DNA of 64,000 nucleotides, from contig NZ_PKMZ01000002.1 of NCBI RefSeq assembly GCF_002893625.1, positions 248,001 through 312,000 of the forward strand, in the 5' to 3' direction. Source of the DNA: Mangrovicella endophytica. Lineage in GTDB: Bacteria > Pseudomonadota > Alphaproteobacteria > Rhizobiales > Rhizobiaceae. The notes beneath the pieces are model-generated. The model saw only the letters and a list, made by a program, of their open reading frames with translations. It was not told the DNA's origin and ran no database searches. This document shows positions 39,124 through 49,571 of the stretch, in pieces. Each line of letters begins with the position of its first letter. The stretch's first letter is position 1. A program made the position numbers and the translations under genes.

Positions 39124-39540
39124 ATGAAGAAGACCCTGATCGCAGCCGCTGCTCTTGCTCTCCTCGCTGGCCCCGCTCTTGCTCAGTCGGCCGGCTCCGG
39201 CACCGGCGTGAAGCCGCTTCCGGGCCAGGATGGTACGGGCAGCGCGGACGCGACCGGCACCAGCGACACCATGTCGACGACCCCGGGCGCAACGAACGGC
39301 TCCTCGTCCATGAGCACGGATTCGTCCGCCATGGGCACGATGGGCACCGACTCCACCTCGACCAGCAGCACCACCGCTGGTGAGATGTCGCCGGACGGTC
39401 AGTCGAACACGGCGAACGGCACGGTCCTGCAGCGTCCGCAGTCCGGCGCAACATCCAACTCGGAGGGCCCGTCCTCGACCACCAACCAGAAGGAGCAAAC
39501 TCCTTCGGCCGGCGTGGTCCCGGGCCAGGACGCCAACTAA
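39124..39540 (+). CDS. Small secreted Ser/Thr/Gly-rich protein with C-terminal VPGQ motif
   Basis: This 138-residue protein has a clear signal peptide (KKTLIAAAALALLAGPALA-QSA) and a mature part that is almost entirely Ser, Thr, Gly, Asp and Met. It contains PLPGQD near the new N-terminus and ends QTPSAGVVPGQDAN. The terminal motif TPSxG(L/V)VPGQ recurs in two further small secreted proteins within 2.2 kb. It is monocistronic, ended by a strong terminator. Function unknown; likely an extracytoplasmic disordered protein. Confidence 0.75.
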   Translation: MKKTLIAAAALALLAGPALAQSAGSGTGVKPLPGQDGTGSADATGTSDTMSTTPGATNGSSSMSTDSSAMGTMGTDSTSTSSTTAGEMSPDGQSNTANGTVLQRPQSGATSNSEGPSSTTNQKEQTPSAGVVPGQDAN

Positions 39541-40148: not shown

Positions 40149-41000
40149 ATGAGCATCATCGACGACGAGCGGCTGGCGGACGCCTATAACAAGGGCTTGT
40201 CTCTGGAGCGGGCCGGCGACCGCGACGGCGCTGCGACAGCCTACCGCCAATGCCTGACGCTCGATCCCGCCGACCATGGCGGTGCGGCGGTGCGGCTTGC
40301 CGCGCTCGGCCTCGGCGACGTGCCGGACAAGGCGCCGGATGCCTATGTCGCCACCCTGTTCGACCAGCATGCCGATGTCTTCGAGGACATGCTCGTTCGG
40401 CAGTTGCGCTACGAGGTACCCAGCCGTCTGGCAGCGCATCTGCTGAAAGCGGGACCATTCAACCGCGTGCTCGATCTCGGCTGCGGAACCGGGCTGGTCG
40501 GCGAGGCCTTGCGCGACCGCTCTGAGGAGATAGTCGGCGTCGACCTGTCCGAGTCGATGGTCGAGCTGTGCGACGAGAAGGAGATATACGATCACCTCTT
40601 CGTGGGCGAAGCGGTGTCCTTTCTCGGCGACGACGACGGGAGCGGCGACGAAGATGAGGATGGCGGCGGCGGGCTGTTCGACGTCGTGACGGCTGCCGAC
40701 GTGCTCCCCTATCTCGGCGATCTCGATCCTCTCGTCGGCGGCGTCGCCCGGCGCCTCGTCCCCGGTGGACGGTTCGGCTTTTCCACCGAAACGATGTCGG
40801 AGGAACGTCTGGCGGGCCGCGCGTTCACCGTCGGGCCGGGCCAGCGCTTCCACCACAGCGATGGCTACGTGCGCGATTGCCTCGACCGGCACGGCTTCGA
40901 CATCGAGACGTTCGAGCCCATCACCGTGCGCCTGCAGGAGGGCGAGCCGGCACCGGGTCACCTAGTGGTGGCACAGCGGCGGGGCGGCGGCGGCGCCTGA
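40149..41000 (+). CDS. SAM-dependent methyltransferase with N-terminal TPR-like segment
   Basis: This 283-residue protein starts with one tetratricopeptide-like unit (LADAYNKGLSLERAGDRDGA) and continues as a class I methyltransferase: VLDLGCGTGLVGEAL (motif I), IVGVDLSESMVELC, then FDVVTAADVLPYLGDLDPL. A Gly/Asp/Glu-rich insert (around residues 160-175) interrupts the domain. TPR-fused methyltransferases of this type are common in rhizobia, with unknown substrates. It is divergent from the YkvA gene. Confidence 0.9.
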   Translation: MSIIDDERLADAYNKGLSLERAGDRDGAATAYRQCLTLDPADHGGAAVRLAALGLGDVPDKAPDAYVATLFDQHADVFEDMLVRQLRYEVPSRLAAHLLKAGPFNRVLDLGCGTGLVGEALRDRSEEIVGVDLSESMVELCDEKEIYDHLFVGEAVSFLGDDDGSGDEDEDGGGGLFDVVTAADVLPYLGDLDPLVGGVARRLVPGGRFGFSTETMSEERLAGRAFTVGPGQRFHHSDGYVRDCLDRHGFDIETFEPITVRLQEGEPAPGHLVVAQRRGGGGA

Positions 41001-41092
41001 TTGCGGCGGCCGGTGCGTGGCTGCCGAAGTCGGCCGCAACCTTCGGAGAGAATGCCTCGTTCGGGTTCAAGGAAGCCAACAAGGACCCCTGC

Positions 41093-41242
41093 ATGCGGAC
41101 CCTCCTCCTCGCCTCAGCCGCTCTCGCCTCCCTGCTTGCCGCGTCGGCCTGCACCACTGCCGGCCGGACAAACCCCGGCGCCGCCACCGACACCGGGGAG
41201 ACCCCCTCGGGAGGGCTGGTCCCGGGCCAAAGGCGGCTGTGA
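41093..41242 (+). CDS. 49-residue secreted peptide/lipoprotein with VPGQ motif
   Basis: The ATG at 41093 is preceded by AAGGA at 7-8 bases. The product has a signal peptide (MRTLLLASAALASLLAASAC) with a possible but non-canonical lipobox (ASA-C), then a short mature part ending ETPSGGLVPGQRRL. The motif matches those of two neighbours. The upstream region GAAGCCAACAAGGA closely resembles GGAGCCAACGAGGA before the gene at 41385, indicating tandem duplication of the pair. Function unknown. Confidence 0.65.
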   Translation: MRTLLLASAALASLLAASACTTAGRTNPGAATDTGETPSGGLVPGQRRL

Positions 41243-41384
41243 AGGTCTGCCGGTCGGATCGAGCACAGGCGGGCGGAGCGGCTGCAACCCGGATCCTGTC
41301 CCGCTCGTTTCCTCCTCAGAGCCCTGCCTGCTGATCGTCCTACAACACGATCCTAAGCCCGTTCGGAGCCAACGAGGATTTTTC

Positions 41385-41702
41385 ATGACCCGCATCGCAT
41401 TGGCCCCCGCTTTGGTCCTCACCCTCCTGGCCGCCACACCGGCGCTCGCGGACTATTGCGGCGGCTCCCAGAATGACGGGCCGGTGATCCTGTCGCCGCG
41501 CGAGCGGGAACGGGCGCGGCGGGTGCAGCTGCCGGACGGGCGGATCGCCGCCTATGCGGAGAACCGCGGCATCCCCTGGCTCTACGGGTTTGGCGACAAT
41601 ACCGGCAAGGCCTCGGCGCTGCCGCTGCGCAACGGCCGCACCCCGTCCGAAGAGGCCTCGACCCCGTCCTGCGGGCTGGTGCCGGGTCAGGAGCCGCACT
41701 GA
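41385..41702 (+). CDS. Small secreted protein with C-terminal VPGQ motif
   Basis: This 105-residue protein has a signal peptide (TRIALAPALVLTLLAATPALA-DYC) and a mature part with PVILSPRERERARRVQLPDGR, an Arg-rich helix, and NRGIPWLYGFGDNTG. It ends STPSCGLVPGQEPH, sharing TPSxGLVPGQ with its neighbours. Two Cys could pair. GAGGA lies 6 bases before the ATG. It is not similar to any family I recognise. The motif suggests a shared C-terminal recognition or attachment signal. Confidence 0.65.
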   Translation: MTRIALAPALVLTLLAATPALADYCGGSQNDGPVILSPRERERARRVQLPDGRIAAYAENRGIPWLYGFGDNTGKASALPLRNGRTPSEEASTPSCGLVPGQEPH

Positions 41703-41965: not shown

Positions 41966-42316
41966 TCATTGCCCGTCGCTGCAATCCTCCTCCTTGGCAT
42001 TGCGCGGCCGCCATTCGACCGTCGCGATGCAGCTGGCCCTGAGATGCACGACGGGCTTGGAGTAGCATTTCGGGTCGGTCAGCGGGTTCTCGTTCAGCTC
42101 GGCGAGGAAGGCACCGTCCCTGGCGGCCTTCTCGATGGTCCGGAGAATGTCCTCCGCCCCGTCCTCGTTGCCGGGGCAGAGATCGTTCATGTATCTCGCG
42201 AAAGACCCGTAGCCGTAGGTGGGGCCGGTGCGGTTGGCGCCCTTGTGGTCGATGATCGACCCGCCGGCCTCCCGCATGGCGTCCCAGGCGCGTTTGGCTC
42301 TCCCGTCCTTGACCAT
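41966..42316 (-). CDS. Hypothetical protein, 116 residues
   Basis: I do not recognise this protein. The sequence is not low-complexity: it has AKRAWDAMREAGGSIIDHKG, a Tyr/Gly-rich YGYGSFARYMNDLCPGN, helical EDGAEDILRTIEKAARDGAFL, and two further Cys. No signal peptide or membrane segment is visible. It is convergent with the small lipoprotein gene, and the codon use looks coding. Confidence 0.6.
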   Translation of the reverse strand: MVKDGRAKRAWDAMREAGGSIIDHKGANRTGPTYGYGSFARYMNDLCPGNEDGAEDILRTIEKAARDGAFLAELNENPLTDPKCYSKPVVHLRASCIATVEWRPRNAKEEDCSDGQ

Positions 42317-42341
42317 AATGCGCTCTCCCGCATGACGACGA

Positions 42342-42947
42342 TCACCACCTAACGCTGGGTAAGCTGCGCGGTTGCGAGCGCGTCACGGCGGGCGGCTCGG
42401 GCGGCTGCGCCGGCGTTGCCGTTTGATGGGGCTGCGGGCGCCAGCGCTCGGGCAGCGGCTCGCGCGCTGCGGGATCGCCCGCCGGACCGGCCTCCGCCAG
42501 CGCGGCATGGGCGGCGCGGATCGCCTCTGCCTCGCGGCGGGCGACGGCGGGATCGCGGAACATCTCGGGATGGTGACGCCGCATCATGGCGAGCGGCAGA
42601 GCGAGCTGCACCGCCTTCGGCAGCGCCTCGAAGCAGGGCGCCCGCAGGCGCTCCGGCAGGGGCGGACCGTCGGTGCGGCGGTCGCCGTGGCAGCAGCGGC
42701 GGCGCCGGCGGCAATCGCCGCGCTTGCAGACCGCGACCAGCAGCCAGGCAATGGTCGGGAGAAACCGCTCCGGCCGATCGTCGTCGCCGGGCAGCCGCGC
42801 CGTCTGCCGGCCGGCCTCGCGGTTGCGGCGGCGCGCGGGGAGGGGAAAGCCGGCCAAGGCCTTGCGCACGATGGCGAGATGGGCGCTGGCGATCCCGTGG
42901 CTTTCGGCGATCTCCTCCGGCGTTGGCGGCGCGTCGCTGATCTCCAT
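42342..42947 (-). CDS. Hypothetical protein with Cys/Arg-rich central motif
   Basis: This 201-residue protein is uncharacterised. A helical N-terminus (PPTPEEIAESHGIASAHLAI) is followed by a Cys/Arg cluster, CKRGDCRRRRRCCHGD, near residues 80-95, then helices (ALPKAVQLALPLAMMRRHH) and a Pro-rich tail. The Cys/Arg cluster recalls similar small motifs in other rhizobial hypothetical proteins and could bind metal or nucleic acid. The ATG at 42947 is preferred over 42968. It is immediately upstream, on the same strand, of the gene at 41966. Confidence 0.6.
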   Translation of the reverse strand: MEISDAPPTPEEIAESHGIASAHLAIVRKALAGFPLPARRRNREAGRQTARLPGDDDRPERFLPTIAWLLVAVCKRGDCRRRRRCCHGDRRTDGPPLPERLRAPCFEALPKAVQLALPLAMMRRHHPEMFRDPAVARREAEAIRAAHAALAEAGPAGDPAAREPLPERWRPQPHQTATPAQPPEPPAVTRSQPRSLPSVRW

Positions 42948-43090
42948 GCATGCTTCTCCGTATTCCATGGGGGGCGGGCGCGCGGAAACGGCGCCGCGCC
43001 CGAAGCCGGGCCGGCGGTGTGGTGGTTTGCAATTCCGGCGGCGCTGCGCGCTCTCGCTGGAATTGCGGGGTGCCGCCCGATGAAGGGCGA

Positions 43091-43149
43091 CGGATCGCCG
43101 AGGGCATGCCCTCCTGATGTGTTTGGTGCGGCACGCCCTCGGCGATCCG
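43091..43149. repeat. Long inverted repeat with nested palindrome
   Basis: CGGATCGCCGAGGGC (43091-43105) and GCCCTCGGCGATCCG (43135-43149) are a perfect 15-bp inverted repeat with a 29-base spacer. A second perfect 14-bp palindrome, GAGGGCATGCCCTC (43100-43113), overlaps the left arm, so two mutually exclusive structures are possible. Another palindrome, CGGATCGATCCG, lies at 43321-43332. They occupy a gene-free region beside the AT-rich island. Confidence 0.75.
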
Positions 43150-43180
43150 CGCGGTGTTTGTGCGACCCGTGGGGTTTTCT

Positions 43181-43281
43181 GCCCCGCCCTTAAGCTTCGC
43201 AGCGTGCGCTGCTCGCTGGTGGAGACGGAGCTTTTGCCCCACCCTTAAGCTTCGCAGCGTGCGCTGCTCGCTGGTGGGGAC
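43181..43281. repeat. Two 46-bp direct repeats, period 55 bp
   Basis: The segments 43181-43226 and 43236-43281 are identical except for two positions. Each contains CTTAAGCTTCGCAGCG followed by TGCGCTGCTCGCTGG. There is no coding gene here. They may be remnants of a repeat family or binding-site iterons. They lie between the inverted repeat and the AT-rich island. Confidence 0.85.
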
Positions 43282-43500
43282 CCCGTGTGGCTACCGGCGC
43301 TTCACCCTTGCGGGCTTAAGCGGATCGATCCGCAGCCCCCTCGTAGTGGGGGACGGGCCGGCGAGGCCGTTGGGCCGTCCGGGACGGCGCCTCTCCGGAA
43401 GAGGCCGCGCCGCGGACACCGCCCGCCGGCCCTCGAATGATCCCGGTGATCAATCGTGCCCTTCAAGGGCCGGCGGTGAGGGCAGTATGGGGCGGGCGGA
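43282..43500. other. Gene-free GC-rich tract before the island
   Basis: This segment carries no supported gene. It includes a palindrome at 43321-43332 and a Gly/Ala-coding-like GC-rich run. Together with the preceding repeats, 42969-43500 is a non-coding, repeat-rich zone ending abruptly where AT-rich DNA starts. Confidence 0.5.
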
Positions 43501-43876
43501 GAGGGCGGGGATAAGGTTTATAAGCTAAGTAGGTATTTAGAACGCTAGTCTTCTAGTTTGCTGCTCCCGCAGAACAGAGGGATGAGCATTTTAGCGCATG
43601 GCCCCAGAATCATCTTGTTGCCTAGGATAAATCCAACGACGTTAACCGACACTGTCGTTACGAAAATTTTGAAATAACTCTTATGATGTCTAAAAAAGTT
43701 CAATGTATGAAACACAATTGCTTTGTTGGCCCGCTACAAATCTAAGGCAGGATGCCTGATGCGTGTGTACTCGAATAGGTATGCGTGTAGGTGCCGAAAA
43801 CATAGTCCTATCGTTGACTTCCCTACTAAGTTAGCTTCATCTCAGTGCCGCAACCGCCAGTAGAGAGCCTAACGAA

Positions 43877-45235
43877 GTGTCGAGACCGACGTTCTTTCGC
43901 GACCCGATCCATCTTCAAATAAGATTTGACAAGGTAGATACCAAGCTTCCAGCTACGAGCATCGAGCGATCTAAGTTAGCAAGCTGGGCGCTTCAGAAGA
44001 TTATCGATACAGATCAATTTCAACGCTTACGCCTCATTCGTCAGAATGGCCTCGCAAACTTTGTATTTCACGGAGCTGAACACTCCCGCTTTTCACATAG
44101 TATAGGCGTACATCATGTGGCTAATAGGATGTTCGAGCGAATTTGCCGAAATATGGGTTTTGAGGAGAGCGCTGAGACGAGATTAGAGGTCTTAGTTGCC
44201 GCTCTTATTCATGACATCGGACACGGGGCGTTCTCTCACACACTTGAAGAAATATTAAAGGACAATCACATTCCATTTCACCACGAAACTATGACTGAAA
44301 GATACATTATCGAGGAAGGATCTGAATTAAACGCGATTTTGAAAGAGGCTGATCTACAGCTTCCTTCTAATGTTGCCGCCTATTTCGACAAGAAAAAGCG
44401 AGGAAATGATCATTGGAAGTACAAGATCGTGTCGAGCCAGATGGATGCAGATCGTCTTGACTATGTTCAGCGTGATGCTCTGTTTGGTGGCATCAAGGGG
44501 CACGGATTCGATTTTGAGCGGTTGTTGGACCTGCTGTCTGTTCATGATCAAAGAAGTATAGGCGTTGACAGGGGCGCCGTAGAGGCTGTGGAAGCGTACT
44601 TGGTAACAATTGACCAGATGTATAGAGCTATTTACTATCATCAAGGAGTAAGGGCGGCTACGCAAATGCTGCTGTCGGTGTTCAAGAGGGCGACTTTGCT
44701 CTGGAAGGAGGGTGACAGAAACGTATTCCCTGCTTTCGGAAGCAGTGTTCATCCCATTGAAGTGTTGCTGAAGGAAGGCTCATATATTGACTTAAAATAT
44801 TATAATTCTATTACCGATCCAATGATCTGGATGTTAATTGATTTTTGGAAGAATCATAAAGACAGCTCTCTTTCTGATCTGGCCTCGAGGTTGCTGCGGA
44901 GAGATCTGCTAAAGACGATGCCTATAACGGATGTTGCTTTCTCCAATATCTCGTCGCTGAGGGGGCGTGCAATAGAACTGACGTCAAAATTTATATCAGA
45001 CCAAAAGTGTGCAGAACTATACGTTGCGGTCGATGACCCGTCTCGCACCAGTTATAAGGGCTATAACTACACTCCGGAATCACCAGACGAATCAATCTGG
45101 TTGACGGGTGGCGGGGAGCGGGACTTGCCTTTGGAAGACGTGTCAAACAGCGCTATCGTCAACGCTTTCAAGCAAAAAACATATTTCCCTCGTCTGGTCG
45201 TGCTTCCGGAAGTGCGCGATCTGATGATGGCGTAA
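43877..45235 (+). CDS. SAMHD1-like HD-domain protein (predicted dNTP triphosphohydrolase type)
   Basis: This 452-residue protein aligns by motif with the SAMHD1/EF1143/YwfO group of HD-domain dNTPases. A conserved N-terminus (FFRDPIHLQIRF) is followed by DTDQFQRLRLIRQNGLANFVF, the first His in EHSRFSHSIGVHH (residue 74), the HD pair in LIHDIGHGAFSHTLE (residues 112-113) and the distal Asp in MDADRLDYVQRD (around residue 192). The remaining 250 residues are unassigned. It starts with GTG at 43877, which keeps the conserved N-terminus. It is in the AT-rich island, 59 bases upstream of a YwgA-like gene, a pairing also seen with ywfO-ywgA of Bacillus. Confidence 0.85.
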   Translation: MSRPTFFRDPIHLQIRFDKVDTKLPATSIERSKLASWALQKIIDTDQFQRLRLIRQNGLANFVFHGAEHSRFSHSIGVHHVANRMFERICRNMGFEESAETRLEVLVAALIHDIGHGAFSHTLEEILKDNHIPFHHETMTERYIIEEGSELNAILKEADLQLPSNVAAYFDKKKRGNDHWKYKIVSSQMDADRLDYVQRDALFGGIKGHGFDFERLLDLLSVHDQRSIGVDRGAVEAVEAYLVTIDQMYRAIYYHQGVRAATQMLLSVFKRATLLWKEGDRNVFPAFGSSVHPIEVLLKEGSYIDLKYYNSITDPMIWMLIDFWKNHKDSSLSDLASRLLRRDLLKTMPITDVAFSNISSLRGRAIELTSKFISDQKCAELYVAVDDPSRTSYKGYNYTPESPDESIWLTGGGERDLPLEDVSNSAIVNAFKQKTYFPRLVVLPEVRDLMMA

Positions 45236-45294
45236 ATGTTCCTCTTTCGTTCGGTTGATGGTAGGCTTACCTAACTCAGGAGGGCGGTGCGATA

Positions 45295-45831
45295 ATGAAG
45301 GCGTCTTTGGTTTTGGGCATCTTAAAAATCCTAGATGCGTCGGACGGCCAGATCGACACTCGCATCAGGTTGCAGAAAGAAGCCTTTCTGCTGGCGGCTC
45401 AGAGATTGCCTTATTTTAATCTTCTAGACTTTGAGTACCATCATTATGGTCCTTATAGCCGTTCGTTGTCTGATGCTCTTAGTTTTGCAGTGTCGACTGG
45501 ATTGGTCGAGGAGGTTGCGCATCTGGCTGAGGATAACCTTGGCAGCCCTATTCGATATTCGTATAATCTTTTAGAGGATGGCCGGAAATTTTTGGAGGAT
45601 GGTGGAGAGGACGACCACGTCCTTCGCGATTTTGTTGAATTTATGCGCTTCAAGCCTTGGCGTTCTCTTGAACTAGCCTCGACAGTCAGGTTCTTACAGC
45701 TTCGTGAAGGCTGGAATGACTATGCTGCAGCGTTCGAGGAAGCTCTGCGTTTGAAGCCAGCCACAGCTTCATACGCTTCTCAGGCACAAGAGGTGATAAG
45801 CAAAATGGAATCGTTTTCGCAAGCCCGGTAA
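45295..45831 (+). CDS. YwgA-like protein paired with the HD-domain gene
   Basis: This 178-residue protein resembles the YwgA family: RIRLQKEAFLLAAQRLPYF near residue 24, then FEYHHYGPYSRSLSDALSF near residue 46 and GLVEEVAHL. The pattern R-LQK...Y--YGPYS also occurs in GepA/SocA-like phage-associated proteins, which have a winged-helix-like fold. The C-terminal helix region (WRSLELASTVRFLQ) is unassigned. AGGAGGG lies about 9 bases upstream of the ATG. It probably acts together with the HD protein; regulation or partner binding is an inference. Confidence 0.75.
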   Translation: MKASLVLGILKILDASDGQIDTRIRLQKEAFLLAAQRLPYFNLLDFEYHHYGPYSRSLSDALSFAVSTGLVEEVAHLAEDNLGSPIRYSYNLLEDGRKFLEDGGEDDHVLRDFVEFMRFKPWRSLELASTVRFLQLREGWNDYAAAFEEALRLKPATASYASQAQEVISKMESFSQAR

Positions 45832-45969
45832 GATGTACCTGTAAAGTTAATCAGTCGACCTCCAGAAACGCGAGGTTTAGCGGGTTCCATTGGGTATCTG
45901 TGATAAGGCTCTCTTCATAGATTGAATGCCTAACACTTGTAGATGTAAGTAGCGACGTCCCTGTAGGAC

Positions 45970-46380
45970 AATCTCCGCGCGGCGGTCCAGGTGCTGCGCG
46001 AGCACAAAGGCTGCATCGTGAACACTTCCTCGGTCTCCGGCCTCGGCGGCGACTGGAACCACAGCTTCTATTGCGCGGCCAAGGGCACGGTGACCAACTT
46101 GACCCGTGCGCTGGCGCTGGACGAGGCGAAGGCCGGTGTGCGCGTGAACGTGGTGAACCCGACGCTGGTCTATACGCCCTTCACCGCCGGTATGCAGGAC
46201 CAGCCGGAGCTGGTGAAGGCCTTCGAGGAGCGCATCCCAATTGGGCGCGGCGCCCAGCCGGAGGACATGATCGGCGCCTTCCTGTTTCTCGCCAGAGAGG
46301 ACGCACGTTTCGTCGCCGGCGTAAACCCGCCGGTGGATGGCGGCCTCTCCGCCTCCAACGGCCAGCCGAAGCTGAGCTGA
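45970..46380 (+). pseudogene. 5'-truncated SDR-family dehydrogenase
   Basis: From 45970 the frame reads NLRAAVQVLREHKGCIVNTSSVSGLGGDW, then FYCAAKGTVTNLTRALALD and RIPIGRGAQPEDMIG ending VDGG. This is the C-terminal half of a classical SDR (Ser of NTSS, Tyr-Lys of YCAAK, final VDGG), but the Rossmann nucleotide-binding half is missing. An in-frame TAG at 45964 lies just before, at the island border. A GTG at 45991 could start a 129-residue remnant. It cannot bind NAD(P), so it is almost certainly non-functional. Confidence 0.85.
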
Positions 46381-46421
46381 GCGCAGGCGCCTGGGGCGGG
46401 GCGGGGCGGGCGCGAGGCGGC

Positions 46422-49571
<3,150 letters not shown>

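Follow-up and report, generated by a model that had tools for sequence, protein, structure and literature searches.

The question raised by this locus is what two adjacent genes in a strikingly AT-rich island, one for an HD-domain protein and the other for a small YwgA-like protein, are doing beside uvrB, and whether they constitute, as the original prediction proposed, a horizontally moved pair with a possible role in defence against phages. The whole stretch of DNA that was analysed, 64 kb in length, is referred to here as the window, and its relevant features are as follows.

43364 to 43517, no strand assigned: left-hand flank of the cargo, also present in G705 and G788
43518 to 45974, no strand assigned: AT-rich cargo of about 2.46 kb, probably horizontally acquired, whose flanks recur in relatives
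43877 to 45235, forward strand: HD phosphohydrolase, an EF1143/SAMHD1-like predicted dNTPase (452 aa, GTG start)
45277 to 45284, forward strand: Shine-Dalgarno-like CAGGAGGG ahead of the partner gene, read directly from the sequence
45295 to 45831, forward strand: YwgA-like partner (178 aa), by sequence and predicted fold a homologue of the DarG C-terminal domain that inhibits DarT
45975 to 46380, forward strand: 3' fragment of a short-chain dehydrogenase gene, its N-terminal half missing (adh_short_C2 profile positions 119-236 of 236)
46422 to 49571, reverse strand: uvrB, convergent, with the cargo site as its 3' flank (NCBIfam UvrB at 1071.8 bits, cut-off 743)

The GC content of positions 43520-45967 is 46.2% as against 66.3% in the remainder of the window, and the lowest value among 1131 other segments of 2448 nt (taken in 50-base steps, none touching 43400-46000) is 62.0%. 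At third codon positions, the values for the HD and partner genes are 0.50 and 0.49, compared with 0.92 for the neighbouring uvrB. The sharp change in composition that was originally noted is confirmed. The two genes are also, as described, codirectional and 59 bp apart, the ORFs at 43877-45235 and 45295-45831 being separated by 45236-45294. Only one other ORF of at least 70 aa lies wholly inside the island and it is antisense to the HD gene. No tRNA was found in the window and no recombinase was recognised among its ORFs, Rfam gave no match for 42000-47000 at E values up to 0.1, and the promoter and terminator scans showed no clear excess over shuffles. The repeat pairs spanning the island are short ones only (e.g. 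15 nt at 43461 and 46443). The foreign composition, together with the sporadic presence of the pair (2 of 61 genomes of the same family, its own included), supports the suggestion that it has moved horizontally.

The first of the two proteins was stated to carry the full H...HD...D motif set of the SAMHD1 group. It matches the Pfam families HD (6.2e-8) and HD_assoc_2 (2.4e-8), phmmer gave 2o6i at 1.3e-44, and its predicted model (pLDDT 87.2) aligns in VIA-align with EF1143 (4lrl; Z 44.6, rmsd 2.2, 412 residues) and also with human SAMHD1 among the entries listed (Z 31.6-33.5). The residues H74, H112-D113 and D192 are invariant across 59 aligned rows, inclusive of the window, and the EF1143 metal ligands, given as H66, H110, D111 and D183 in the accessible part of PMC8177086, align onto H74, H112, D113 and D192 in a mapping that uses an inferred 24-residue numbering offset of that chain. 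Both the motif set and the placement within the SAMHD1 group are thus upheld. The same accessible part of PMC8177086 lists D137, Q142 and R145 as residues of allosteric site 1 of SAMHD1. A D-x4-Q-x2-R stretch (viz. D44, Q49 and R52) is present in the HD protein as judged from an alignment to fungal SAMHD1. The match of these three columns to the human D137, Q142 and R145 is presumed, leaning partly on the human SAMHD1 sequence as we take it to read. Its sequence, its metal ligands and its predicted fold all place the HD protein with the dNTPases of the EF1143/SAMHD1 type, and dNTP hydrolysis is predicted for it. It shares with EF1143 and SAMHD1 the fold, the metal ligands and the active-site motifs; however, it is 31% identical to EF1143, is encoded with a partner and lies inside an AT-rich island. 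In the tree of HD proteins it forms a long isolated branch of unsure placement. Scans with the single HD sequence yielded one weak viral locus and no locus in genomes, and the viral fold library gave one match below an E value of 0.001 (a Sulfolobus virus protein at 9.9e-4).

The second protein carries both R-LQK and YGPYS, the motifs by which it was originally picked out, and it matches no Pfam family at E values up to 1. Its predicted model (pLDDT 92) gave 7yk3_B in Foldseek at 6.8e-5, and the PDB fold ranked highest for it in VIA-align is that of DarG from the DarTG complex (165 residues, Z 13.3), as against Z 8.8 for the next fold family. At the sequence level, an initial four-sequence profile found DarG in G580 unprompted (1.6e-8), that DarG being above the NCBIfam cut-off. 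The profile used for detecting partners at HD loci contained one DarG domain, and the DarG test was repeated without it; a profile of 30 free-standing YwgA-like proteins, inclusive of no DarG, matched the C-terminal half in 13 of 13 DarG frames (E values of 5.5e-16 to 3.3e-3 in a 13-sequence search), and hhalign of this profile against the 13 DarG C-termini gave a probability of 98.3 and an E value of 2.5e-14. These 13 come from 15 DarG loci, L300 and L303 being N-terminal matches only. The partner is thus, by sequence and predicted fold, homologous to the C-terminal domain of DarG, which is the part that blocks DarT, and this domain, in the accessible text of PMC11481870, occludes the DarT active site. 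The homology to DarTG covers most of the length of the partner; however, the island is without DarT and macrodomain (neither is found by Pfam in its two proteins), the domain is here a separate protein and its presumed target is a dNTPase. The claim that the YwgA-like protein regulates the HD enzyme is rendered plausible by this homology to a DarT-inhibiting domain. The window partner is acidic (pI 5.1, net charge -7), but mimicry of DNA is not claimed, as the computed free-standing members span pI 5.1-9.2. The conserved GPY of YwgA proteins also recalls the GPV carried by Panacea antitoxins (PMC8832971, accessible part). In hhalign, the YwgA-like proteins matched 13 Panacea frames with a probability of 47 and an E value of 2e-4 over 55 columns only, the same being seen for the DarG C-termini, and with two off-target frames still included the probability was 12; the resemblance is suggestive and a Panacea link is not claimed.

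Further information is provided by the site in which the island lies. The left flank is 82.2% identical over 157 columns to G705, and 43289-43519 is 71.4% identical over 245 columns to G788; the similarity ends at 43517 and 43519, respectively, after which each of these two genomes has a different AT-rich cargo. On the right, the similarity begins at 45975 with the dehydrogenase gene of G788, where it is a full-length reading frame, and at 46009 with that of G705, where it is another 3' fragment. The left flank is common to these two relatives only, is not found beside uvrB in G673, and similar dehydrogenase DNA occurs away from uvrB in G939 and G836. The stretch that separates this left flank from uvrB contains a full-length AriAB in G705 (PARIS, 1.4e-197) and, in G788, a DarT-like gene (2.7e-9) that matches nothing in NCBIfam at 1e-5, and the AT-rich cargo at uvrB in the family also includes a dCTP deaminase and three retron-type reverse transcriptases. 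The cargo site of the island holds known defence genes in relatives.

The extent of this association was determined from the uvrB matches in 40 of 41 same-family genomes (G659, which lacks such a match, was left out of both the uvrB and recA sets). For the UvrB of the window, the best named matches in the plasmid collection are from Sinorhizobium and Shinella (82-83%), which points to the Alphaproteobacteria and hence the Pseudomonadota. In 14 of the 40 genomes, the window included, AT-rich ORFs occur no further than 6 kb from the 3' end of uvrB; at recA this is so in 4 of these genomes. PADLOC matches among such ORFs are present in 8 of 39 genomes at uvrB (window excluded) versus 0 of 40 at recA (Fisher p 0.0024), in a comparison that has this single gene as its control and covers AT-rich ORFs only. 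The uvrB negatives include four genomes with short 3' flanks (L195, L197, L213 and L222), and in the recA set the 3' flank of L241 and L248 extends for about 3.2 kb. The genome G788, found via its dehydrogenase DNA, is outside this count, and its cargo scan covered two of three ORFs (leaving out L192:11881-12825). The uvrB 5' flank also shows PADLOC matches in 4 genomes, in a scan of all but one ORF (L215:12289-12762), and due to this the whole neighbourhood may be permissive. The known defence systems found at this site in relatives lend indirect support to the defence idea, and because related bacteria keep different known virus-defence genes at this spot, the two genes may form an anti-virus module that has not been described before. 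A second pair, in G020 from another family, is likewise found at the 3' end of uvrB. However, it should not be interpreted as showing an ancient linkage of the pair with uvrB, as the two pairs are only 31% (HD) and 33% (partner) identical and, within the DNA examined, 9 of the 11 pairs in the phylum of the window were not seen at uvrB (2 were; G658 was judged by its contig). A shared cargo site fits better.

Based on these results, we tentatively favour, at a little short of an even chance, the explanation that the pair is an antiphage module exchanged by horizontal transfer, in which the YwgA/DarG-like protein binds a putative dNTPase and keeps it in check. The island would be a two-gene cargo module without its own integrase, occupying a site of exchange beside the 3' end of uvrB. 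Its first gene would specify a metal-dependent dNTP triphosphohydrolase of the EF1143/SAMHD1 type, and its second a free-standing DarG C-terminal domain, viz. a winged-helix domain with a helical tail, which most likely restrains the HD enzyme by binding to it, as the DarG domain does with DarT. By analogy with DarG, this would make the pair a toxin neutralised by direct binding (type II toxin-antitoxin). On infection, the enzyme would be set free by a shift in the dNTP pool or by the partner being lost, and would then drain dNTPs so that phage DNA synthesis stops. The close coupling of YwgA matches to HD genes (described below) counts in favour of this explanation. Against it count the sharing of the left flank with two relatives only, the presence of just 2 of the 11 pairs of the phylum at uvrB, the PADLOC matches in the uvrB 5' flank, the single control gene, the lack of an NCBIfam match for the DarT-like gene of G788 and the weak PADLOC matches of the pair.

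The chief rival, in our view rather unlikely, is that the pair is instead an acquired housekeeping unit which balances dNTP pools, its partner tuning the enzyme to the growth state, with phages irrelevant and the uvrB site merely tolerating foreign DNA. The distribution of the pair bears on this point. As predicted, the two genes are conserved neighbours, the HD-YwgA order recurring in Bacillota, Rhodothermota, Planctomycetota and the phylum of the window. Searches with YwgA queries matched 12 genomes (own included), in 9 of which the match adjoins an HD gene and in one of which it is DarG, whereas the other two are weak matches in long other frames (a 648-residue frame at L149 of G664, and L004 of G167). 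The genes ywfO and ywgA of B. subtilis were originally described as neighbours, and the pair is found in Bacillus mojavensis (L083) and in Priestia, where it is among housekeeping genes. The Priestia pair is ywfO-ywgA-like, and ywfO-ywgA may likewise balance dNTP pools in Bacillaceae. Both families and their order are identical to those of the window, but the housekeeping setting in Priestia differs from that of an AT-rich cargo at uvrB. Partner-bearing HD loci are mostly labelled Bacillaceae (15 of 21), and this label is clustered on the HD tree (6 changes versus 26.1 in shuffles). Further, the pair of G658 lies amid genes resembling those of central metabolism, which we named by recognition. 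The Priestia and G658 settings and the clustered Bacillaceae label favour a housekeeping role; however, the known defence systems carried as cargo at the same site, the pair of G291, which adjoins HmaB-like and PbeA-like genes, the sporadic occurrence in the family and the long isolated branch of the window HD protein all argue against it. Of 80 related HD loci, 59 showed no partner (at L050 and L055 the contig stops before its presence could be judged), and hence the enzyme can exist without it. This result and the Priestia setting speak against a purely defensive reading of the pair.

The possibility that the partner is a PadR-like DNA-binding repressor of its own operon, which makes no contact with the enzyme, is considered improbable. 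Its N-terminal half does resemble PadR/MarR winged helices (Z up to 8.8), and weak matches to Replic_Relax were found in 13 of 22 members of the partner family (best 1.3e-4), HTH_34, HTH_27 and PadR being each matched by one member (best 0.0026 to 0.013). However, the window partner matches none of these four families and is acidic, its best match by far is to the whole DarG domain, the next-ranked PadR rows covering about 80-95 residues, and across the pairs the partner gene is downstream of the HD gene, in most cases overlapping or nearly touching it. More improbable still is a plain addiction module, in which an HD toxin and its antitoxin stabilise the island with no antiphage benefit, as would suit a small two-gene unit of foreign composition with homology to an antitoxin domain, since no partner was detected at any of the 14 Lactobacillaceae-labelled and 14 Paenibacillaceae-labelled HD loci, so that the HD family is not inherently lethal, and several of the genes carried at this site belong to known antiphage systems.

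The favoured reading, a dNTPase restrained by a bound protein, can be compared with two known kinds of defence. The HD protein matched 9mr6 and due to this Clover was considered, in which the CloA dGTPase is accompanied by the CloB nucleotidyltransferase. The two-gene logic of a dNTPase and a restraining partner would be the same (PMC12265719, a preprint, accessible part). CloB makes an inhibitory nucleotide, but the window partner is similar to an antitoxin domain that binds protein, and no nucleotidyltransferase family matches it. As the 9mr6 match is to fungal SAMHD1 and the partner is DarG-like, membership of Clover was rejected. The antiphage dGTPases (PADLOC dGTPase, NCBIfam NF041026) share with the HD protein the HD superfamily and the probable substrate class, but its PADLOC match is partial (24.2 bits, 78 of 395 positions) and it scores 14.9 bits against the NF041026 cut-off of 400, so that membership of this family was also rejected. 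Against PADLOC, the pair shows weak matches only (dGTPase 4.8e-6, DarG 4.2e-9). In the literature, mostly that open without subscription, nothing was found on the HD-YwgA pair, on DarG together with YwgA, or on a cargo site at the uvrB 3' end, the papers on ywfO or ywgA are, judged by their listing, not about the pair, and literature on COG1078 or COG3465 did not mention COG3465.

A wider proposal, possible but doubtful, is that evolution has used the YwgA/DarG-C-terminal domain as a portable off-switch for effectors of unrelated chemistry, viz. the DNA ADP-ribosyltransferase of DarTG and, here, a SAMHD1-type dNTPase. The pair would then be an antiphage system not described before, with a bacterial SAMHD1 kept inactive by a bound protein and not by a nucleotide signal, and the uvrB 3' end would be a place, so far overlooked, at which this bacterial family exchanges small defence systems, in which case its unnamed cargo genes would be further candidates. 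If true, this would join two well-studied fields, viz. the SAMHD1-type dNTPases and toxin control of the DarTG type, and the nucleotide-depletion defences known so far would gain a form that is switched by a protein. It would also suggest a role for the YwgA protein beside YwfO in Bacillaceae, and the unnamed cargo genes at uvrB make up a short list for screening.

The AT-rich island (2.46 kb) lies inside GC-rich DNA, and its GC content is 46.2% vs 66.3% for the surroundings; the lowest value among 1131 other 2448-nt windows is 62.0%. The island contains two codirectional genes, separated by 59 bp, whose third codon positions have GC contents of 0.50 (HD protein) and 0.49 (its partner) vs 0.92 for the adjoining uvrB. 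The features concerned are as follows.

43518-45974, AT-rich island
43877-45235, plus strand, EF1143/SAMHD1-like HD protein, 452 aa
45295-45831, plus strand, YwgA-like partner protein, 178 aa
46422-49571, minus strand, uvrB

To the right of the island, a short-chain dehydrogenase gene is represented by its 3' part only (profile positions 119-236 of 236), and the 3' end of uvrB follows. The closest named matches of UvrB within the plasmid collection are in Sinorhizobium and Shinella (82-83%), which is indicative of Alphaproteobacteria. No tRNA gene was found in the window, the island gave no match to Rfam, no recombinase was recognised by eye among its ORFs, and the repeats bounding it are only short pairs. 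Just to the left of the cargo site, a 50-nt direct repeat is present in two copies (43177-43281; 55 bases apart, 94% identical). Further, three small ORFs of the window (39124-39540, 40877-41242 and 41001-41702) share a VPGQ motif near the C-terminus, and the first of these starts with a signal-like sequence.

The same site holds different cargo in relatives. In one genome of the same family (G705), the left flank (window 43364-43517) can be identified, as can the dehydrogenase fragment and uvrB, but the AT-rich insert between them is a different one and encodes an AriAB protein of 697 aa, i.e. the PARIS defence system in its fused form (PADLOC 1.4e-197, nearly the whole profile). In another genome, G788, a third AT-rich insert lies between this left flank and uvrB; it carries a DarT-like gene (PADLOC 2.7e-9; unmatched by NCBIfam at 1e-5), and the dehydrogenase of G788 is a full-length frame located on the far side of uvrB. 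On the left, similarity ends at 43517 in one of these comparisons and at 43519 in the other, i.e. two bases apart. Similar dehydrogenase DNA is found away from uvrB in G939 and G836, and the left flank is absent from the stretch of G673 that was compared.

To determine how common such cargo is, uvrB and its flanks were taken from the family sample, in which uvrB was found in 40 of 41 genomes. AT-rich ORFs (GC at least 0.08 under the local median, within 6 kb) are present at the uvrB 3' end in 14 of the 40 genomes, the window included, vs 4 of 40 on the 3' side of recA (Fisher p 0.014), where the same procedure applied to the same genomes gave none on the 5' side. The PADLOC defence profiles (1e-5) recognise the uvrB 3' cargo in 8 of the 39 other genomes, vs 0 of 40 for recA (Fisher p 0.0024), none of the five AT-rich ORFs at recA being matched. 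The types recognised are AriAB, a dCTP deaminase (2.8e-163), an NsnA-like DUF262 protein, a PDC-S33 protein, retron II-A, retron III-A, RT-TIR XII and capP with beta. When 500-base windows lying 0.10 under the median GC were counted instead, the numbers were 17/41 (3', G788 included) and 8/41 (5') for uvrB, and 5/40 and 1/40 for recA. The contrast is softened by PADLOC matches on the uvrB 5' side in four genomes (Dsr1, Old-like, PDC-M28B and PDC-M70), by its dependence on one control gene, recA, and by the scanning of AT-rich ORFs only. The composition of the island is foreign, and the site that it occupies is defence-rich. Some AT-rich cargo at the uvrB 3' end is unmatched by PADLOC at 1e-5, viz. 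a 462-aa P-loop-like protein (G673, L196:8070-9455), a pair of 262 and 329 aa (G664, L216:6923-8681) and a 161-aa protein (G676, L198:8141-8623), and these are candidates for unnamed defence genes.

The HD protein has the Pfam domains HD and HD_assoc_2. By sequence, its nearest relatives of solved structure are EF1143 from Enterococcus faecalis (1.3e-44), two further bacterial HD proteins, a fungal and a worm SAMHD1, and mammalian SAMHD1. When a model built from 59 sequences (pLDDT 87.2) was compared with known folds, EF1143 could be superposed over 412 residues at a Z score of 44.6, and human SAMHD1 entries scored 31.6-33.5. The metal ligands of EF1143 are given as H66, H110, D111 and D183 in PMC8177086, and their counterparts here (H74, H112, D113, D192) are invariant in 59/59 rows. 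The match in sequence and fold, together with the retained ligands, indicates that the protein is very probably a dNTP triphosphohydrolase.

The partner matched no Pfam family, and its matches in PADLOC and NCBIfam were weak ones to the C-terminal region of DarG, the antitoxin of the DarTG toxin-antitoxin system. Its model (22 sequences, pLDDT 92) has one standout PDB match, namely DarG as present in the DarTG complex 7yk3 (Z 13.3, 165 residues), the next row being a PadR winged helix (Z 8.8 over 89 residues). DarG is present in 18 of 299 genomes, and a YwgA-like profile of 30 proteins, made without any DarG, matches its C-terminal half in 13/13 members of a comparison set covering 13 of the 15 loci given (E 5.5e-16 to 3.3e-3, 13-sequence search); profile-profile comparison of the two gave a probability of 98.3 (E 2.5e-14, single comparison). 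In the genome G580, a four-sequence YwgA profile matched (1.6e-8) a 421-residue frame which is DarG by NCBIfam (286.8 vs a 250-bit cut-off), and upstream of it is a DarT-like gene with 89 bits, under its cut-off of 150. The partner is homologous to the C-terminal antitoxin domain of DarG, and this holds with the DarG-free profile. For a possible likeness to Panacea, profile comparison is no more than suggestive. The C-terminal domain of DarG is a DNA mimic that occludes the active site of DarT and so neutralises it (PMC11481870), and it is a natural inference from the homology that the partner may touch the HD enzyme directly, inhibiting or regulating it.

The original prediction had suggested a defence or nucleotide-pool system. 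In the antiphage reading, which we favour tentatively and at somewhat under an even chance, the partner would bind the HD enzyme and hold it quiet, phage infection would lift this restraint, and the released enzyme would cause dNTPs to drop. Precedent for restrained dNTPases in defence is provided by Clover, according to a preprint (PMC12265719); there, however, CloB makes a nucleotide that acts as the restraint, whereas here it would be a protein partner.

Searches with the YwgA query covered overlapping sets of 299, 385 and 61 genomes, each including the window's own genome. Matches were found in 12 genomes: nine adjoin an HD gene, one is DarG and two are weak (5.5e-4 and 1.7e-4; the frames have 442 and 648 residues, respectively). 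Among 80 HD loci selected for likeness to the window HD protein, a YwgA gene is directly downstream in 21 (gaps of -55 to +219 bases, starts picked automatically) and was undetected at 59, two of which have <320 bases of contig left. Strong matches to the HD protein (E up to 2.6e-20) occur in 23 of 385 same-class genomes. In nine of the 23 a YwgA-like gene adjoins the HD gene, one of them reversed in order and with a weak score. When the YwgA label (30 rows) was mapped onto a tree of 99 HD proteins, 6 changes were required vs 26.1 in shuffles; the branch of the window protein is long and its placement is unsure. The Priestia pair has housekeeping surroundings (pta, hemQ, gerQ, speE). From these results, the pair is widely distributed and probably old; in Bacillaceae it has the look of ordinary metabolism, and in the window's class its presence is sporadic. 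That the island carries an acquired housekeeping pair is the second most likely reading, which we regard as rather less probable than the antiphage one. A further HD-YwgA pair, 31% and 33% identical to that of the window, is located at the uvrB 3' end in G020, which belongs to another family, and the pair in G291 (L103:1-7000) adjoins DUF1156/HmaB-like and PLD/PbeA-like genes. In G658, of the same family, an in-frame stop splits the HD frame of the pair (L148:1997-3406).

Relatives of the HD protein also occur in other arrangements. On plasmids of Rhizobium, Methylocystis, Sphingobium and Desulfosarcina (L110, L111, L112 and L113), an HD protein, in most cases a larger one, is immediately preceded by a gene of ~140 aa. 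In Sinorhizobium meliloti psymA (L114:1-7332), a member of the same HD protein family is encoded in one gene row together with a DncV-like nucleotidyltransferase, a ThiF protein, a radical SAM protein and an exonuclease, and no YwgA gene was detected in this row. The conjugative Acaryochloris plasmid pMB06 carries a relative (L008:5977-7176; 37.5% identity) in broken pieces, with an integrase gene adjoining.

Two other readings were considered: that the partner is an autoregulator is improbable, and that the genes form a plain addiction module is slightly more improbable again. PADLOC 2.0.0 gave weak partial matches only for both island proteins, and our literature search, which covered paper listings, found no description of the HD-YwgA pair or of the uvrB site. 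The component families of the pair are already known; it is their combination, and the partnering of a SAMHD1-like enzyme by a DarG-like domain, that appear new.
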